Positions 36,936 to 46,040 of a DNA stretch of 64,000 nt are shown piece by piece. The stretch covers positions 1,694,226-1,758,225 of the forward strand of contig NZ_CM001441.1 of the NCBI RefSeq assembly GCF_000244895.1. The letters are read 5' to 3'. The position numbers were made by a program, and so were the translations under genes. The notes beneath the pieces are model-generated. The model saw only the letters and a list, made by a program, of their open reading frames with translations, made no database searches and was not told the DNA's origin. The stretch comes from Desulfosporosinus youngiae DSM 17734. Its GTDB lineage: Bacteria; Bacillota; Desulfitobacteriia; Desulfitobacteriales; Desulfitobacteriaceae. Each line of letters begins with the position of its first letter. Position 1 is the first letter of the stretch.

Positions 36936-37508
36936 ATTTGTGATTGAAAAGTTACAATCTTTAAATTACTCTGAGCTATGCTTTTCGTGGTTTGATAAAT
37001 GGGGCCTGAAAGCTTAGCATAAGTCCTTGAAAATACGTACATAGTCCACTGCTATTAAACTTTCTGAGGTAACATATTGATTTGTGTGATAATTGGCAAA
37101 GAACTTGCAATTAAAGTTGTGGGACAGAAGTTAAGCATTTTATAGAAGGAGGTTTTGATGGTCATTTTAGGGCAATGAAATATTTGAATCAAAGGAGGAA
37201 TAAAAGTAAAGGATTAACGGTATTATTACGCATTTTTCATGATATATCTTTGTAATTCTTACTTAACAAATCATTTTAAACTTTATGCAAGCCTAGTGAG
37301 GTAAAATAGCTATACTAAGGCCGATAACCTAGGGGTCTTAGCGGGCATCAGTATAGGATTGTTTTTCACGGACCTGAAAATACCAAGAAAGTAGTAACCA
37401 AGGATTTTGCTTTCGTAACACATACTATAGATAGACACGTGAATTTATCAGCTGACTTTTCTTCTTAAACCCGGTTCTCAGATTAAATCACAAGAAAGGG
37501 TGAATAAC
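36936..37508 (+). other. Promoter and long leader of the BCCT carrier gene
   Basis: About 570 bases without a recognised gene. Holds a sigma-54 promoter (37094-37109), so the transcript would have a leader of about 390 bases. The leader has AAGGAGG near 37148 followed by a 6-codon frame starting at the next ATG, and a second orphan AAAGGAGG near 37193 with no good start. These may be leader peptides or a decayed gene. Confidence 0.5.
37094..37109 (+). promoter_or_regulatory. Sigma-54 promoter upstream of the BCCT carrier
   Basis: TGGCAAAgaacTTGCA: consensus TGGCAYRNNNNTTGCW matched at all positions but one (A for Y), with correct spacing. Transcription would start near 37120. Confidence 0.75.
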
Positions 37509-39074
37509 TTGTCACAAGAGAAGTCCAAAGGTATATATGCTCGTATTAATCCTGTTGTTTTCTGGGGCAGTGCCATTTTATGTGTTGTGTTATATGCTCC
37601 AATGCTTATTTTTGGTACGGAGCTGCAACCCTATGTTTCAACCATCTTAAAAGCTATAACCTATAGAATGGATTGGTTATGGTTATTATTTGCCTTGGGC
37701 TGTGTAGTGTTTTCACTTTGGTTAGCTTTTGGCAGATATGGTAATGTAAAATTGGGCGGACCGGATGATAAACCCGAATTCTCAGACTTCAGCTGGATAT
37801 CGATGATGTTCACAGGCGGTGTCGGAGCCGGTTTAGTTTATTGGTCTATGGCCGAGCCTATTTTTTATCTTAAGTGGCCTCCTTTCTGGGGTGAGGCATT
37901 TTCAGCACAAGCTGCGCAATTCTCTATTGCTTATGGAATATTTCACTGGGGTATATCGGCCTGGGCTATCTTTGTCCCGGGGGCTATCGCCTTTGCCTAC
38001 ATGATTTACGTAAGAAAAAAACCTTACTTCTATCCAAGCTATGCTTGCAGGGGAATATTGGGGGACAGGGTAGACGGATGGCTTGGCAGAGCTATTGATA
38101 TCTTCGTTATTATCGGTCTGGTAGGCGGATTAGGAACAACCTTAGGAACGGTTGTGCCTATGATGTCGGCCGTAAGCGCCAATATGCTGGGTATTGAGGA
38201 TTCTATGGCGGTAAAAGTTGGGGTCACACTGGTGATTTCGGCTGTATTTGGCTATAGTGCTTACTCCGGTTTAAATAGCGGAATTAAAAAATTGTCGGAA
38301 TTAAATAGTTGGTTATGCATGGGATTACTGGCTTTTGTTATGCTGGTAGGCCCCACCCTATTTATGCTATCCTTTTATGTTGACAGCCTAGGGGTTTGGG
38401 CTACTAACTTTTTACGAATGAGTTTATATACAGATCCGATTACCAAATCCGGTTTTCCTCAGGACTGGACAGTGTTTTACTGGGCCTGGTGGGCAGCATG
38501 GGCCATGTATTTCGGATTATTTGTTGCCAGGATCTCCAAGGGGAGAACGATCAAAAACGTTGTTCTGAATATGATGGTTGTAACGACAATCGGCTGTTCA
38601 CTATTCTTCTTAGTGTTCGGCAGCTATGCAGTAGATCTTCAGCTTAATCAAGGGATAGCACTTGATGTAACTTTGGCTGAGGCCGGTGCCGGGGCAATGA
38701 TTACCCAAGTTATAAATACCTTACCCTTAACTGCAATAGTGATTCCCTATTTCTTATTTGTAATGCTTATTTTCCAAGCTACGACCATCGATTCCAACGC
38801 GTTCATTATTTCCATGATCGCTTGCAAAGAGGTTAGGAACGATCAGGAATCTCCCCGCTGGACGAGACTTTTCTGGTGTTCACTCCTGGCAGTGATCGGG
38901 GTGGCTATCATGATGGTGGGCGGGTTACCGGTAGTTCAGCTTTCATCCGTTGCCACCAGCGTCCCTATTATATTTATTATCATCATCTTAGGGCTGTCCC
39001 TACGCAAGTGGCTCAAGGAGGATTTCGGCCAAGAAGCTAAAGTGCAAGTTGTCGATTATCCGGAAGAAGACTAA
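37509..39074 (+). CDS. BCCT-family betaine/carnitine/choline transporter
   Basis: About 521 residues, twelve hydrophobic segments, secondary transporter for quaternary ammonium compounds. The glycine-rich helix-3 segment is 'FTGGVGAGLVYWSMAEP' and the Trp-rich substrate-site segment is 'VFYWAWWAAWAMYFGLFVAR', both family hallmarks. TTG 37509 has AGAAAGGG 8 bases upstream; GTG 37500 lies too close to it. It is behind a sigma-54 promoter and convergent with a LysR gene. The MttB-family methyltransferases about 3 kb away suggest glycine betaine or a similar betaine as substrate, by inference. Confidence 0.93.
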   Translation: MSQEKSKGIYARINPVVFWGSAILCVVLYAPMLIFGTELQPYVSTILKAITYRMDWLWLLFALGCVVFSLWLAFGRYGNVKLGGPDDKPEFSDFSWISMMFTGGVGAGLVYWSMAEPIFYLKWPPFWGEAFSAQAAQFSIAYGIFHWGISAWAIFVPGAIAFAYMIYVRKKPYFYPSYACRGILGDRVDGWLGRAIDIFVIIGLVGGLGTTLGTVVPMMSAVSANMLGIEDSMAVKVGVTLVISAVFGYSAYSGLNSGIKKLSELNSWLCMGLLAFVMLVGPTLFMLSFYVDSLGVWATNFLRMSLYTDPITKSGFPQDWTVFYWAWWAAWAMYFGLFVARISKGRTIKNVVLNMMVVTTIGCSLFFLVFGSYAVDLQLNQGIALDVTLAEAGAGAMITQVINTLPLTAIVIPYFLFVMLIFQATTIDSNAFIISMIACKEVRNDQESPRWTRLFWCSLLAVIGVAIMMVGGLPVVQLSSVATSVPIIFIIIILGLSLRKWLKEDFGQEAKVQVVDYPEED

Positions 39075-39141: not shown

Positions 39142-40053
39142 CTATTTTGAAATGGGTGTGGAAATTTCACACATAGATTTAAGGACTTCTATAAATTCCT
39201 TTTCTACTTGAGAAACAGCATATCGGTTCGACCTTATTAATCCAACGGTTATGCCTAGACTAACATCACTAATGGGGATAGGTATTATTTCTCCTGATTG
39301 CAAGTATATATCGTTAGTCGACATGAACTTGGGAAAGAAGGAGATAGCAATTCCTTGAGAAACGACTCTTTTGATGAGTTCAAAATTACAGAACCTAAAC
39401 ACCACATTTGGTTCGCCGTACTGTTTCAATATACTTGTAATGCCCCCATTATTCTTTGCAAATTCGTCATTATAGGCAACAAAGGGATATTCAAGCGCTT
39501 CTTTCAAAGAGACTGATTCTTTTGCTGAGAGAGGAGAATCTTTTCCGGCATATATCAAAAATTCATCTGAGAATAATTCCTCTCTGCAAATATCTTTTCC
39601 TTGGATTTCTTTAGTTAAAAGAACGATCCCAAGATCATTCTTTCCAGATTGGATGTTTTGTAAAATGCTAATTGACTCACCTACTGTTAAATTAATATTG
39701 ACTTTTGGGTGTTTATTTTTTAAGTGGTATAAAACGTTAGGTATTATCTTATCTCCCATGCTCGGGATAATTCCAACGGATAGACTGCCGGTTAATGAGG
39801 AAGAGTTGGCAAGCTGTTTAATCTCTTCTACGGTATCAAGAATAAGGCGTGCTTTTTCAATAACCATTTCTCCGATTTCTGTTGGGTAAGCGCCTTGGGT
39901 AGTGCGCTTAAACAGTACTGTCCCTATTTCGTCCTCAAGTTTGCTTATCGAAGAGCTGACTGCAGGCTGAGTAATAAAAGCATGCTCCGCCGCTAGTGAA
40001 ATTGAGTTGTATTTAGCAACCTCAATTAAGAGAGATAACTGTTCTAATCTCAT
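39142..40053 (-). CDS. LysR-family transcriptional regulator
   Basis: 303 residues. N-terminal winged HTH: 'MRLEQLSLLIEVAKYNSISL', 'ITQPAVSSSISKLEDEIG'; effector domain from about residue 90 ('GSLSVGIIPSMGDKIIPNVL'). I set the start at the ATG complementary to 40051-40053 because GGAGG is 7 bases upstream on the minus strand; an upstream in-frame ATG (40086) has no site. It lies 3' of the sigma-54 activator on the same strand, between the BCCT and methyltransferase genes, so it probably regulates one of these; the effector is unknown. Confidence 0.92.
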   Translation of the reverse strand: MRLEQLSLLIEVAKYNSISLAAEHAFITQPAVSSSISKLEDEIGTVLFKRTTQGAYPTEIGEMVIEKARLILDTVEEIKQLANSSSLTGSLSVGIIPSMGDKIIPNVLYHLKNKHPKVNINLTVGESISILQNIQSGKNDLGIVLLTKEIQGKDICREELFSDEFLIYAGKDSPLSAKESVSLKEALEYPFVAYNDEFAKNNGGITSILKQYGEPNVVFRFCNFELIKRVVSQGIAISFFPKFMSTNDIYLQSGEIIPIPISDVSLGITVGLIRSNRYAVSQVEKEFIEVLKSMCEISTPISK

Positions 40054-40111
40054 AAAATACCTCCGACTGCATAAGAAGCTCTTCAAAAGAAGGAGACTTA
40101 TTCTAATACTT

Positions 40112-41578
40112 TTAACTATTTTGACCGGTAGTGCTGCTCTGCTTATAGTTACGTACGATTCGAGTTACTTTACTTTGGCTGATATTCAGAGTGCTTGCAA
40201 CTTTATAAGAACTACGCAGCGTATTATATAACCGTATTATGATAGCCTCTTCGTCACTAGATTTCTTAAGATTCTTCCAGTTTGATAGCTCATCTTGAAG
40301 TAAACTTCTACTGGCGGGAACGGATGGAAGTTTAAATATTTTACTGGGTAAATGTTCAGGTGAAATATATCCTTCGGGAATTGTAACCACTAACCGCTCA
40401 GCTAGATGTTCCATTTCGCGTATATTTCCTGGCCAGGAATAATTTTCTAGAATAGACAGACAACGTTTATCAAATTTATGAGAGTATGCATACATAAGGT
40501 CATATTTCTTTAAAAAGAATTGTAACAAAGGAATAATATCCTCTGCTCTTTCTCTTAAAGGGGGAGTATCTATTTCAATTACGCTTAACCTGTAATATAG
40601 ATCTTCGCGGAACTTACCTTCTTGAATTAATTGAACTAGATTTCTATTGGTAGCTGCAATAATTCGTATGTCAATTTTCTTATGTTCTTTTCCACCGACA
40701 GGAATAAATCGACGCTCCTGAATAAGCTCTAATAACTTTGCTTGGATTGCTAATGGAATTTCACCGACTTCATCAAGGAAAAGAGTCCCGCCGTTTGCAA
40801 GTTCTACCAGACCTACCTTGCCATACTTGTCTGCTCCTGTAAAAGCACCGCGGCAATAACCGAATAATTCTGATTCTAAAAGGTGCTCAGGAATTGTGGC
40901 GCCGTTAATACAGATAAACGGCCCATCTTTTCGACCGCTCATTTTGTGAATATCCATAGCTAAAACGTTTTTCCCAGTTCCGGATTCCCCTAGGATTAAG
41001 ACGGTTGAATTCACAAGGGCTACCCTCTGAACAATTTCCAGGCACTGCTTCATCTTCTCATCACGAAAAGAATATCCTTTAAAATAACTTACTTGTTGGC
41101 TTAACTCTTCTACTTTGTTCTTATAATGGCTAACCAGTTTTTTGGTTTTGTCCAGGTCCTGTTTTAATTGTTCGATTTGCGTAATATCACGACTGTTCAT
41201 AACAATGAACTCTACGTCGCCGTTCTTATTAAAGACTGGGGTAGCGGTCACAACAAGTTTGATGCCATATTTTGTAGTTTGCTCTAATGTAACCGATGAT
41301 TTATCTCGAAAAACAATGGGGGCAAGGGCCGGAGAATAATACCCTTCCTCTAATAAATAATGAAAGTTTTTTCCGATGATCTCAGATGGATCTAAACCAT
41401 AATGTTTCTTACATGCATCATTAACAAATATTACAACTCCTTTGCTGTTGACAACAAAAATCTCATCAAAGGAATTGTTCAATATCATTTTGAAATCGTC
41501 TTTGTCCAAATTGCTATCGTTAAATTCGACCAAATTCAACAACTCCCTTTGTGGTAATTTCTCAAGATGTGTCGTCAT
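40112..41578 (-). CDS. PAS-domain sigma-54-dependent activator
   Basis: 488 residues. PAS domain about 28-135 ('NNSFDEIFVVNSKGVVIFVN'), short coiled coil (about 140-165), AAA+ domain about 170-395 with Walker A 'GESGTGKN', 'GAFTGA' sigma-54 loop, 'GTLFLDEVGEIPL' and the Arg finger region 'FREDLYYRL', then a C-terminal HTH ('SYKVASTLNISQSKVTRIV'). ATG 41578 has no ribosome site; a TTG at 41533 has AAAGGGAG 7-8 bases upstream and may be the true start (15 residues shorter). It is transcribed away from the methyltransferase operon. Sigma-54 promoters lie upstream of that operon and of the BCCT gene, its likely targets. Confidence 0.92.
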   Translation of the reverse strand: MTTHLEKLPQRELLNLVEFNDSNLDKDDFKMILNNSFDEIFVVNSKGVVIFVNDACKKHYGLDPSEIIGKNFHYLLEEGYYSPALAPIVFRDKSSVTLEQTTKYGIKLVVTATPVFNKNGDVEFIVMNSRDITQIEQLKQDLDKTKKLVSHYKNKVEELSQQVSYFKGYSFRDEKMKQCLEIVQRVALVNSTVLILGESGTGKNVLAMDIHKMSGRKDGPFICINGATIPEHLLESELFGYCRGAFTGADKYGKVGLVELANGGTLFLDEVGEIPLAIQAKLLELIQERRFIPVGGKEHKKIDIRIIAATNRNLVQLIQEGKFREDLYYRLSVIEIDTPPLRERAEDIIPLLQFFLKKYDLMYAYSHKFDKRCLSILENYSWPGNIREMEHLAERLVVTIPEGYISPEHLPSKIFKLPSVPASRSLLQDELSNWKNLKKSSDEEAIIIRLYNTLRSSYKVASTLNISQSKVTRIVRNYKQSSTTGQNS

Positions 41579-42283: not shown

Positions 42284-43705
42284 ATGACTTTAAAATCAAG
42301 GTTAGAAGTATTGACGAAGGATGATTTAGTGAGGGTGCATGATGCCACTCTGAAGATTCTTCGGGAGACGGGTGTAGTATTTCATAGTGAGGAAGCAATT
42401 GAGGTTTTCAAAAAACATGGAGCTAGGGTAGAGAATAAAACAGTTTATATATCTCGTGAGATGGTTGACAAAGCTTTAGCTACCGCTCCGCGCAGCTTCC
42501 GAATGCGCGCTCGTAATGATAAATATTCTGTAACTGTTGGTGAAGGATTTTTGATACAGCCTAATGTCGGTCCGGTTTATATTCAAGACTTGGATAAGGG
42601 ACGTCGTGAGGGAACTTTAGAGGATTATGCCAATATCCAGAAACTATGTCAGGCTAGTGATGTTGTTGACTTGGTAGGGACAATTCCGGTTGATCCCAGT
42701 GATGTTAACAGTGATGACAAATATATGCTTATGATGTATCAGGCCCTGAAACATTCAGAGAAGCCAGTGATCGGATTTTGCGCTAATACTCAACAAGTTC
42801 GTCAGCAACTGGACATGGTTGAGATTGCCATGGGTCAACCAGGATTTCTGTTAGATAATCACTGTACTGCGGTGCTGGTAAATTCACTGAGTCCATTAGC
42901 CTATGCTCCTGACACATTGGAAACTATGATCGAATATGCCAAACGCAATCAGGTTATTTTGCTTGCTCCCTGCATCATGGCAGGAGTCAGCGGACCAATA
43001 TCCCTCTTGGGAACGGCAGTCTTGCAAAATACTGAAACTATTGCCGGATTGGTACTAGTTCAATTAATCAACCCCGGTTCGCCGTTAGTATATGCAACAG
43101 CCTCCACCTCGGGATATATGAAGGAGGCTACATATGCGGCTGGTACACCGGAAGCTATGCTCATTAATACAGCCAGCTTACAAATGGGTTTGGATTTCTA
43201 TCACTTACCGGTAAGAACAATGTCTGGAATTACTCACTCCAAAACCGTGGATTGCCAGGCAGGGTATGAAACCATGCAGAGTTTAATGATGGGAATGATG
43301 AGTGGGGCCCACATGTCGGTTCAGAGTTTAGGTGTATTGGACGCTATCATGACTACTTCTTATGAGAAGTTCGTCATTGATGAGGAACTGATCAGGAGAG
43401 TACGAAGAATTTCTCAAGGTATTGATACTTCTGATGAAGCCTTAGCGGTAGATGTTATTCAAGAAGTAGGACATACGGGCACCTATCTAAGTCATATGAG
43501 CACTTTTGAGAAATTCCGCTCTCTGTGGACCCCCACAGTCTCGGATTGGGGAAATTATAGCGACTGGAAGGATTCCGGTTCAGAAGATGTGGTGATCCGG
43601 GCAAATCGTAAGTTCAAACAAATTCTTCAAAGTGCTCCGGATACTTTGTTGATGCCAGAAATAGATAAAGCACTATCAAAGTATATTGATGCTAATTCCA
43701 AGTAG
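42284..43705 (+). CDS. MttB-family corrinoid methyltransferase, non-pyrrolysine (betaine-type)
   Basis: 473-residue member of the trimethylamine methyltransferase family without an in-frame UAG. At the place where MttB has pyrrolysine the sequence reads 'MSGITHSKTVD', aligned with 'VAGG-Pyl-VDSKLPD' in the paralogue at 44568. Family blocks: 'GFLIQPNVGPVYIQDLDKG', 'VNSLSPLAYAPDTL', 'VDVIQEVGHTGTYLS'. Characterised non-Pyl members (MtgB, MtpB, MtcB, MtyB) demethylate glycine betaine, proline betaine, carnitine or gamma-butyrobetaine, passing the methyl group to a corrinoid protein. The nearby BCCT carrier supports a betaine. Ends in UAG. Behind a sigma-54 promoter, with the corrinoid protein gene next. 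Confidence 0.9.
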   Translation: MTLKSRLEVLTKDDLVRVHDATLKILRETGVVFHSEEAIEVFKKHGARVENKTVYISREMVDKALATAPRSFRMRARNDKYSVTVGEGFLIQPNVGPVYIQDLDKGRREGTLEDYANIQKLCQASDVVDLVGTIPVDPSDVNSDDKYMLMMYQALKHSEKPVIGFCANTQQVRQQLDMVEIAMGQPGFLLDNHCTAVLVNSLSPLAYAPDTLETMIEYAKRNQVILLAPCIMAGVSGPISLLGTAVLQNTETIAGLVLVQLINPGSPLVYATASTSGYMKEATYAAGTPEAMLINTASLQMGLDFYHLPVRTMSGITHSKTVDCQAGYETMQSLMMGMMSGAHMSVQSLGVLDAIMTTSYEKFVIDEELIRRVRRISQGIDTSDEALAVDVIQEVGHTGTYLSHMSTFEKFRSLWTPTVSDWGNYSDWKDSGSEDVVIRANRKFKQILQSAPDTLLMPEIDKALSKYIDANSK

Positions 43706-43877: not shown

Positions 43878-44510
43878 ATGAATGATTTCGAACAATTAGC
43901 CGATTATGTTTTCAAAGGTAATGCTGCTGCAGTAAAAGACCTGACCCAAAGAATGGTGGATGGTGGCGGCAACCCCATGGAGATTATCTCTAACGGTCTT
44001 CTGATTGGAATGGATATTGTTACTCCAAAGTTCAAAGCCGGTGATATGTATGTGCCAGAAGTTATGATGTCTGCCAAAGCATTATCTGAAGGTATGAAAA
44101 TCGTGAAACCACTTCTTACAGGATCGGAAATTTCCGTCACAAAGACGATTCTTATCGGGACTGTTTCAGGAGACCTTCATGACATTGGTAAAAATCTGGT
44201 CGTTATGATTTTGGAAAGTGGCGGCTTTAATGTCGTTGACCTAGGAGTCGATGTATCGCCGGAGAAATTTGTTGCAGCAATCAAGGAGCATAATGCTAAA
44301 ATCGTTGGTCTATCAGCTTTATTAACGACCACCATGCTTAATATGAAAGCGACTATTGAACTAATCACTGAAGAAGGACTTCGTGACAGCGTAAAGGTCT
44401 TGATTGGAGGCGCACCAGTTTCTCAAAGCTTTGCCGATGAAATCGGTGCCGATGGTTATTGTGCTGATGCCATGGCTGCAAAAGAAATGGCTACCGCATT
44501 ATTGAACTAG
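43878..44510 (+). CDS. mttC: Corrinoid (methyltransferase partner) protein
   Basis: 210-residue B12-binding protein of the MttC/MtbC/MtgC type. N-terminal helical cap domain (about 5-85, 'VMMSAKALSEGMKIVKPLL') and C-terminal Rossmann-like B12 domain with the cobalt-ligand motif 'GDLHDIGKNLV' (about 98-108), plus 'VDLGVDVSPEKFV', 'GLSALLTTTM' and 'VLIGGAPVS'. Strong TTAGGAGGAGG ribosome site. It sits between the non-Pyl and the Pyl methyltransferase, so it may accept methyl groups from both. The UAG stop is backed by an in-frame TAA three codons later. The symbol follows mttCB gene order and is not proof of trimethylamine specificity. Confidence 0.92.
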   Translation: MNDFEQLADYVFKGNAAAVKDLTQRMVDGGGNPMEIISNGLLIGMDIVTPKFKAGDMYVPEVMMSAKALSEGMKIVKPLLTGSEISVTKTILIGTVSGDLHDIGKNLVVMILESGGFNVVDLGVDVSPEKFVAAIKEHNAKIVGLSALLTTTMLNMKATIELITEEGLRDSVKVLIGGAPVSQSFADEIGADGYCADAMAAKEMATALLN

Positions 44511-44567
44511 GATCGATAAAGATTAATATGATACTTAATAATTCATTACTAAGTAGAGGTGAGAAAT

Positions 44568-46040
44568 TTGAGAACTGATGTTCAAGCAGGAGTTTCTAGA
44601 GTTGAGGGCTTTGGGCTTAATTTATTTTCAGATGATGAGCTTTACGCTATCCACTCCGGGACTTTGGAGGTCTTAGAGAAAACTGGAATTAAAGTAGAAT
44701 CTAAAGAGGCTTTGGAAATCTTCGCTGCGGGAGGAGCTATAGTTGACTTCAAAACCCACGTCGTAAAGATTCCGCCCTATATTGTGGAAGATGCTATACG
44801 TTCAGCTCCCAATACCATCCTATTAGCCGGGCGTAATCCGAAACATGACATCATCTTAGGCGGCAAAAGGGTTCATTTTATTAATTTCGGTGAAGGGGTC
44901 TCAATCATCGACCCGTACACCAAAGAATATCGAAAAACGACTAAGCAGGATGTCGCTAATATCTCGCGTTTTTGCGATGCCATGAGTGAAATGGATGCAG
45001 TTTTACGACCTGTAGCACCTCAGGATGTACCGGCGGAGGCTGCTGTAGTTCACAACGCAGAGGCACTTTTTAATAATACATCAAAGCATGTTTTCATAGG
45101 CACCGAAGGTGGACGTAATTTTAAAAAGGTATTAAAAATGGCTGCAGCGGTTGTTGGCGGCGAGGACAAACTTCGGGAACGCCCTATCTTCTCGTGCAAC
45201 GTCTGTCCTACAAGTCCTTTACAATTGGTGGGCCATTGTACTGAGGTTATTATCGAGGGTGCACGTGCCGGTATAGCCGTTAACTTATTATCAATGGCTA
45301 TGGCAGGGGCCACCTCTCCAATCACTTTAGCAGGCAGTCTTGTTACGCACAATGCGGAAGTATTGAGTGGTATCGTTTTAAGTCAACTCACGCGCAAAGG
45401 TGCGCCAGTGATTTATGGCAGTTCCACGACGATCATGGATTTAAGATTTGCGACAGCTCCGGTTGGATCTCCGGAATTGGGAATGATCAATGCCGGAGTC
45501 GCAAAACTTGCCCAATATTACTTACTGCCCAGTTGGGTAGCAGGTGGATAGGTAGATAGCAAACTTCCGGATGCCCAAGCATCTCATGAGTTCACAATTA
45601 CCGCTATGCTGACCGCGTTGGCAGGGTCCAACCTGATCTATGGAGCGGGTATGTTAGAACTCGGTATCACCTATGATTATGCTCAAATGGTGATGGATAA
45701 CGAGATGGCTAGGATGATCAAGAAAACTGTTTGCGGGATTAGTGTGTCGGATGAAACCTTAGCTATAGATGTTATTAAGCAGGTAGGTACCGCTGGTAAC
45801 TTTATTAGCGAAGAACACACCTTCAAACATATGCGCACCCAATCCAAAAGTAATGTTATCGACCGTCGAATGAGGGATGTCTGGTTGACAGACGGAGGTA
45901 AGGATTTTACAGAAAGAGCCTATGAAGTGGCTAAATCCATTTTGGAAGACTATAAACCTGAGTCCCTGCCGGAAAGTGTTCAAGCTGAATTACGAGCTAT
46001 TGTCGAAGAAACAGAAAAAGAGTATGGTGTCAATAAGTAA
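44568..46040 (+). CDS. mttB: Trimethylamine:corrinoid methyltransferase with in-frame UAG (pyrrolysine)
   Basis: One gene read through an amber codon at 45549-45551. Upstream and downstream halves are in the same frame and together give 490 residues, the usual MttB length. Around the codon the protein reads 'LLPSWVAGG-Pyl-VDSKLPD', matching the pyrrolysine site of Methanosarcina MttB ('LPSFVAGT-Pyl-SDAKIPD', from memory, Pyl near 334); here it is residue 328 from TTG 44568 or 331 from GTG 44559. TTG 44568 is preferred (AGAGGTGAG 4 bases upstream). Family blocks: '[17 protein letters not shown]', '[20 protein letters not shown]', '[17 protein letters not shown]'. Transfers a methyl group from trimethylamine to the corrinoid protein. 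No pylT, pylS or pylBCD is in the window. Confidence 0.93.
45549..45551 (+). other. In-frame UAG codon, predicted pyrrolysine
   Basis: Amber codon inside mttB. The following codons continue the MttB sequence without frame change to the TAA at 46038-46040. The codon falls exactly at the known Pyl site of the family, so a sense-codon reading is far likelier than a nonsense mutation. Confidence 0.9.

Follow-up and report, generated by a model that had tools for sequence, protein, structure and literature searches.

An mttB gene of Desulfosporosinus youngiae is interrupted by an in-frame TAG, and it raises the question of how this triplet is read in a genome that also uses UAG to end its genes. 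The gene lies in a window of 64,000 nucleotides, C1:1694226-1758225 of a one-contig 5.66-Mb assembly (coordinates below that lack a prefix are those of the window). Comparison of the gene with its relatives, together with the pyl genes of the genome, leads us to judge, with a probability of roughly 95%, that the TAG serves as a pyrrolysine (Pyl) codon within an intact gene, a figure that does not extend to the possible cis element considered in the later sections. On this reading the window mttB would be a classic example of a naturally expanded genetic code, and standard annotation would cut the gene into two pieces.

The in-frame UAG of the window gene

Codon 45549-45551 is TAG and corresponds to residue 328 of the mttB frame (44568-46040, plus strand). 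As the first-pass annotation had claimed, the frame is otherwise open: with the TAG read as a residue it encodes 490 amino acids without any other stop, continues for 162 sense codons beyond the TAG (about 163 in the earlier count) and ends in TAA at 46038-46040. It begins at a TTG (44568) that is preceded by a Shine-Dalgarno-like AGAGGTGAG (44555-44563, plus strand), and the sequence around the UAG residue, PSWVAGG-O-VDSKLPD, has the flanks originally described. Gene calling with table 11 yields two ORFs in place of mttB (44559-45551 and 45606-46040), just the split that had been foreseen for an automatic annotation. The full-length product belongs to the trimethylamine:corrinoid methyltransferase family and scores 761.9 bits against TIGR02369 (curated cut-off 525) and 348.8 against PF06253 (cut-off 25); the former score indicates that the frame across the TAG is not a product of chance.

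The nearest structures, by sequence as well as by predicted fold, are those of Methanosarcina barkeri MttB (7xcl, 7xcm and 7xcn; E 5e-127). Homology is full-length, the fold search aligning 490 columns at about 45% identity, and an AlphaFold model of the window protein (pTM 0.84) has 7xcl as its top match in the PDB (TM 0.87). The UAG residue sits in the same place in both proteins: residue 328 aligns with the modified/non-standard residue X334 of 7xcl, which is Pyl334 (PMC9842639), and the assignment of the UAG to the known Pyl site of the family is thereby upheld. The active-site residues Gly110, Met249 and Tyr364 named in the same study are kept as G108, M243 and Y358, whereas the window protein has a Glu where M. 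barkeri has Thr111. The substrate of the window enzyme is probably trimethylamine, judging from its annotation.

Unlike its M. barkeri counterpart, the window gene has a non-Pyl paralogue of MttB and a BCCT transporter for neighbours. Just upstream of it is the gene for a cognate-type corrinoid protein (MtgC/MtbC/MttC-like; 43878-44510, plus strand), and before that the MttB-family paralogue (42284-43705, plus strand), which by alignment has no stop at the homologous site; both genes terminate in TAG. Farther upstream lie a sigma-54-dependent PAS/AAA+ activator that is likely the local regulator (40112-41578, minus strand), a LysR-family regulator (39142-40086, minus strand) and the betaine/carnitine/choline transporter (37500-39074, plus strand), a plausible route for methylamine or quaternary-amine uptake. 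All five of these assignments come from profile matches. A non-Pyl MttB paralogue lies close by in the same operon for three of the four UAG-mttB genes of the genome (42284-44510 in the window, and two further loci), an arrangement that suggests paired methyltransferases.

In all 20 mttB orthologues that were fetched, from several genera, the aligned codon is TAG and the frame has no further stop; the closest of them (93-94%) are from Desulfosporosinus species. For the close orthologues from Desulfosporosinus, pn/ps amounts to 0.05-0.11 before the UAG and 0.04-0.17 after it, and these low values, similar on the two sides, indicate that the 3' part of mttB is translated and functional. The notion that the TAG is a disabling mutation or a sequencing error and the downstream part a relic agrees with the two ORFs of table 11 calling, but it is ruled out for practical purposes by the conservation of the TAG in all 20 orthologues and in three paralogues of the same genome, together with purifying selection on the downstream codons that resembles that on the upstream ones.

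The pyrrolysine system and the two uses of UAG

The first-pass annotation had predicted pyl genes elsewhere in the genome and had named their absence as an outcome that would count against Pyl. A search of the one-contig genome instead found pylT (CUA anticodon), one pylSc, three copies each of pylSn, pylB and pylD, and two of pylC. The tRNA-Pyl gene (C1:667618-667689) is located just upstream of pylSc (412.7 bits; cut-off 178), and ARAGORN detected no additional pylT among the other loci that were fetched. This pylT-pylSc locus (C1 0.668-0.678 Mb) has its own UAG-mttB, followed downstream by pylB, pylD and pylSn. A pylB-D-Sn operon at about 4.388 Mb on C1 adjoins another UAG-mttB, a pylB-C-D-Sn operon is found near 1.67 Mb, roughly 22 kb ahead of the window, and a solitary pylC lies at 2.898 Mb. 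The three pylB-(C)-D-Sn operons have diverged (pylB 60-75% identical) as against a single pylT and a single pylSc, and pylC is absent from two of them (0.668-0.678 and 4.388 Mb). Together with the conserved TAG of the orthologues, this full pyl set supports the proposal that the UAG is decoded as pyrrolysine.

MttB with Pyl is already known, as are pyl genes in Desulfosporosinus, with split-synthetase systems in D. orientis and D. meridiei (PMC3639795) and a PylRS from Desulfosporosinus sp. I2 (PMC7615293), and trimethylamine use by bacteria has also been described (PMC7593587). The present genome resembles such systems, including the pylTSc...BCDSn arrangement of Desulfitobacterium hafniense, in having pylT beside pylSc, a pylB/D/Sn cluster and UAG-mttB genes near. 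It differs from them in its three diverged pylB-(C)-D-Sn operons per one pylT/pylSc, and in the position of pylC outside the pylT-pylSc locus. Some relatives (G022, G006 and G012) encode two or three types of PylSc (about 95%, 72% and 50% identical to the one found here), each with its own, different tRNA-Pyl, and it is possible that several Pyl synthetase/tRNA pairs operate within one bacterium.

The genome has 13 MttB-family genes, and an in-frame UAG occurs at the same alignment position in four of them (the window gene and three paralogues). A TAA within an MttB match at C1:430088 was considered as a recoded stop and rejected, since it sits upstream of the real start and not at the Pyl site. 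The fifth Pyl gene encodes the dimethylamine methyltransferase MtbB and carries an in-frame TAG (C1:3492281-3493639, minus strand); it is flanked by genes for a corrinoid protein and a methyltetrahydrofolate-type methyltransferase. No MtmB was found in the genome. Other MttB paralogues have a Gln (or Ile/Val) codon exactly at the Pyl position, several of them adjoining UAG-mttB genes, and such genes may either have left Pyl use behind in evolution or have preceded it.

According to the proposed mechanism, the split PylSc/PylSn synthetase would charge tRNA-Pyl(CUA) with Pyl made by PylB, PylC and PylD, and the charged tRNA would insert Pyl at residue 328 of MttB. The pyrroline ring at this residue would then activate a methylamine, probably trimethylamine, and the methyl group would pass to the corrinoid protein encoded just upstream. 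A suppressor tRNA might instead read the UAG as a canonical residue such as Lys or Gln, and Gln does stand at this place in related non-Pyl paralogues. Given a dedicated tRNA-Pyl(CUA) beside pylSc, three operons for Pyl biosynthesis and the presence of Pyl at this site in a solved family member (PMC9842639), however, such a reading is highly improbable.

UAG is both a stop and a Pyl codon in this genome. Of 145 ORFs of at least 150 amino acids in the sampled genome regions, about 40 terminate in TAG, not counting the four Pyl genes; the two genes that directly precede the window mttB, for the corrinoid protein and the non-Pyl MttB, are among them. With roughly one in four sampled genes ending in UAG, decoding must discriminate between the two meanings of this codon, and Pyl insertion competes with release. 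A non-Pyl mttB at C1:3657270-3658676 (minus strand) ends in TAG and is followed, in frame and nine codons on, by the ATG of the next gene, for a corrinoid protein, such that readthrough would yield an MttB-corrinoid fusion. The pylD of the pylT-pylSc locus (L016:14686-15543) also ends in TAG, and readthrough there would add 49 codons overlapping pylSn.

The frequent use of UAG as a true stop gives some credit to the view that it is a regulated terminator in mttB as well, with a 327-residue product made most of the time and full-length MttB only when Pyl is available. Published work on mtmB did find an amber-truncated product alongside the full-length protein (PMC2933860). The truncated MttB would, however, be without its catalytic residue and its final third, and its sequence holds no hint of a function for the 327-residue form. 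We therefore consider this view improbable, and it departs from the reading of UAG as a Pyl codon in degree only.

Synonymous constraint 3' of the UAG

If UAG is read as pyrrolysine, signals in the mRNA could contribute to the choice between its two meanings, and the codons that follow it are constrained in a manner consistent with such a role. Three independent orthologue groups of Pyl-mttB, sited in different operons, were compared: W, which contains the window gene (11 sequences), F (15) and B (6), the latter two having about 50-60% protein identity to W. Across the 40 codons following the UAG (45552-45671 in the window, plus strand), synonymous divergence is about two-fold lower than in the gene as a whole, with ps values of 0.27 vs 0.53 in W, 0.26 vs 0.54 in F and 0.23 vs 0.55 in B, all taken as pairwise NG86-type proportions and not from a codon model on a tree. 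The dip is also seen at four-fold degenerate sites alone (p = 3e-4 in W, 4e-6 in F and 1e-5 in B), and random codon sets matched it in 0 of 20000 draws, a type of test that ignores autocorrelation. As to its position, the 33-codon window of lowest ps opens at codon -5, -2 or -1 relative to the UAG in W, F and B, and the lowest 40-codon window at +16, -3 and 0.

Two sets of paralogues served as controls. The first, NP, consists of the non-Pyl mttB genes of the same operons from nine genomes, and lacks a dip at the homologous codon (0.75 vs a gene mean of 0.64). The second, Q, consists of tandem paralogues that have CAG/CAA for the UAG within a near-identical protein motif, and comes from four genomes that also supplied four B-group members. 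No dip is present in Q (0.55 vs 0.50), whereas the matched Pyl partners in these four genomes give 0.19 vs 0.53. Its absence from both controls links the constraint to the UAG, and across the sequences compared the nucleotides 3' of this codon are synonymously constrained only when it is UAG. The four-fold sites and the Q group also exclude amino-acid composition as the source of the dip. The W, F and B groups freeze different synonymous codons, which argues against one preferred codon set; third-position G+C is raised at +21..+40.

Among other Bacillota, most orthologue pairs have the dip, oftenest at +21..+40 (for example 0.07 vs 0.62, 0.22 vs 0.83 and 0.36 vs 0.69), and some pairs are without it. 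Orthologue groups A (3 sequences) and E (2), which are underpowered, gave no significant dip, nor was one apparent in a distant orthologue set near saturation.

RNA folding and a candidate cis element

The stretch from the UAG onward (45549-45648, plus strand) matches the Rfam covariance model PYLIS_3 (RF02510) with 90.2 bits (gathering threshold 38). We do not take PYLIS_3 to be a folded element here, since the match is one of sequence only: covariation at its pairs is no higher than in shuffles, and 7-13 of 22 distinct sequences are unpaired at four of the eight pairs. RNAalifold found no common pairs in the region 3' of the mttB UAG, and a common hairpin at 36-117 nt was rejected because every group folds there, each differently. 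One pair in the F group covaries (G-C, A-U and G-U, none broken), but codon-column shuffles for those windows are weak. Such shuffles over +12..+40 gave z values of -1.9 for W, -1.3 for F and 0.0 for B, and the segment -12..+16 of W reached -3.3, among 57 windows tested. In a codon-permutation test of folding energy, control windows were nearly as extreme as the post-UAG ones, probably through mixed base composition. Earlier work similarly reports no common structure after the UAG of mttB (PMC3639795), and mtmB was found to do without its PYLIS (PMC2933860). Reviews portray Pyl insertion as simply competing with termination, and PYLIS as dispensable and little conserved (PMC9499178, PMC2933860).

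The constrained segment nevertheless shares its site with PYLIS, as described for mtmB and modelled for mttB by RF02510, in that both occupy about 100 nt directly 3' of the UAG. The evidence differs in kind, being a synonymous-rate dip that is strongest at +21..+40 in some lineages and not a shared fold. The bacterial SECIS is likewise a signal within a coding region, placed 3' of a stop codon that is recoded; the analogy is one of action only, and no conserved hairpin emerged for mttB. We know of no SelB-like factor for Pyl.

We suspect, with somewhat better than even confidence, that in bacterial Pyl-mttB genes of several Bacillota lineages the 120 nt or so 3' of the UAG contain a cis-acting RNA element tied to this codon. 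Such an element would tip the ribosome towards Pyl, and would differ in sequence and fold between paralogue groups. PYLIS-like in its position, the element may either raise Pyl insertion or lower termination, and so promote or tune the decoding of UAG. Alternatively, the constraint may be real and unrelated to decoding, reflecting codons that assist co-translational folding, an internal promoter or small RNA, or local gene conversion. The lack of a conserved RNA structure, the higher third-position G+C at +21..+40 and the similar amino-acid motifs around the site in all paralogues are each compatible with this. It does not readily account for the absence of the dip from same-genome non-Pyl and Gln-codon paralogues, the latter with a near-identical motif, or for its recurrence in groups that occupy separate operons and conserve different synonymous codons. 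Gene conversion in particular is unlikely because same-genome paralogues are scarcely more alike in this region than cross-genome ones. Taken together, we find an origin of the constraint outside decoding to be the less probable account, though a serious one.

The literature searched, the coverage of which was incomplete, contained no account of a synonymous constraint linked to UAG in bacterial mttB, and we make no claim to priority. The synonymous minimum that follows the UAG and is lost in paralogues with a sense codon nevertheless reopens the question of a cis signal for bacteria, and it names the 120 nt in which to look. Should a cis element indeed reside there, it would account for how the two meanings of UAG are told apart in bacteria where this codon also serves as a stop.
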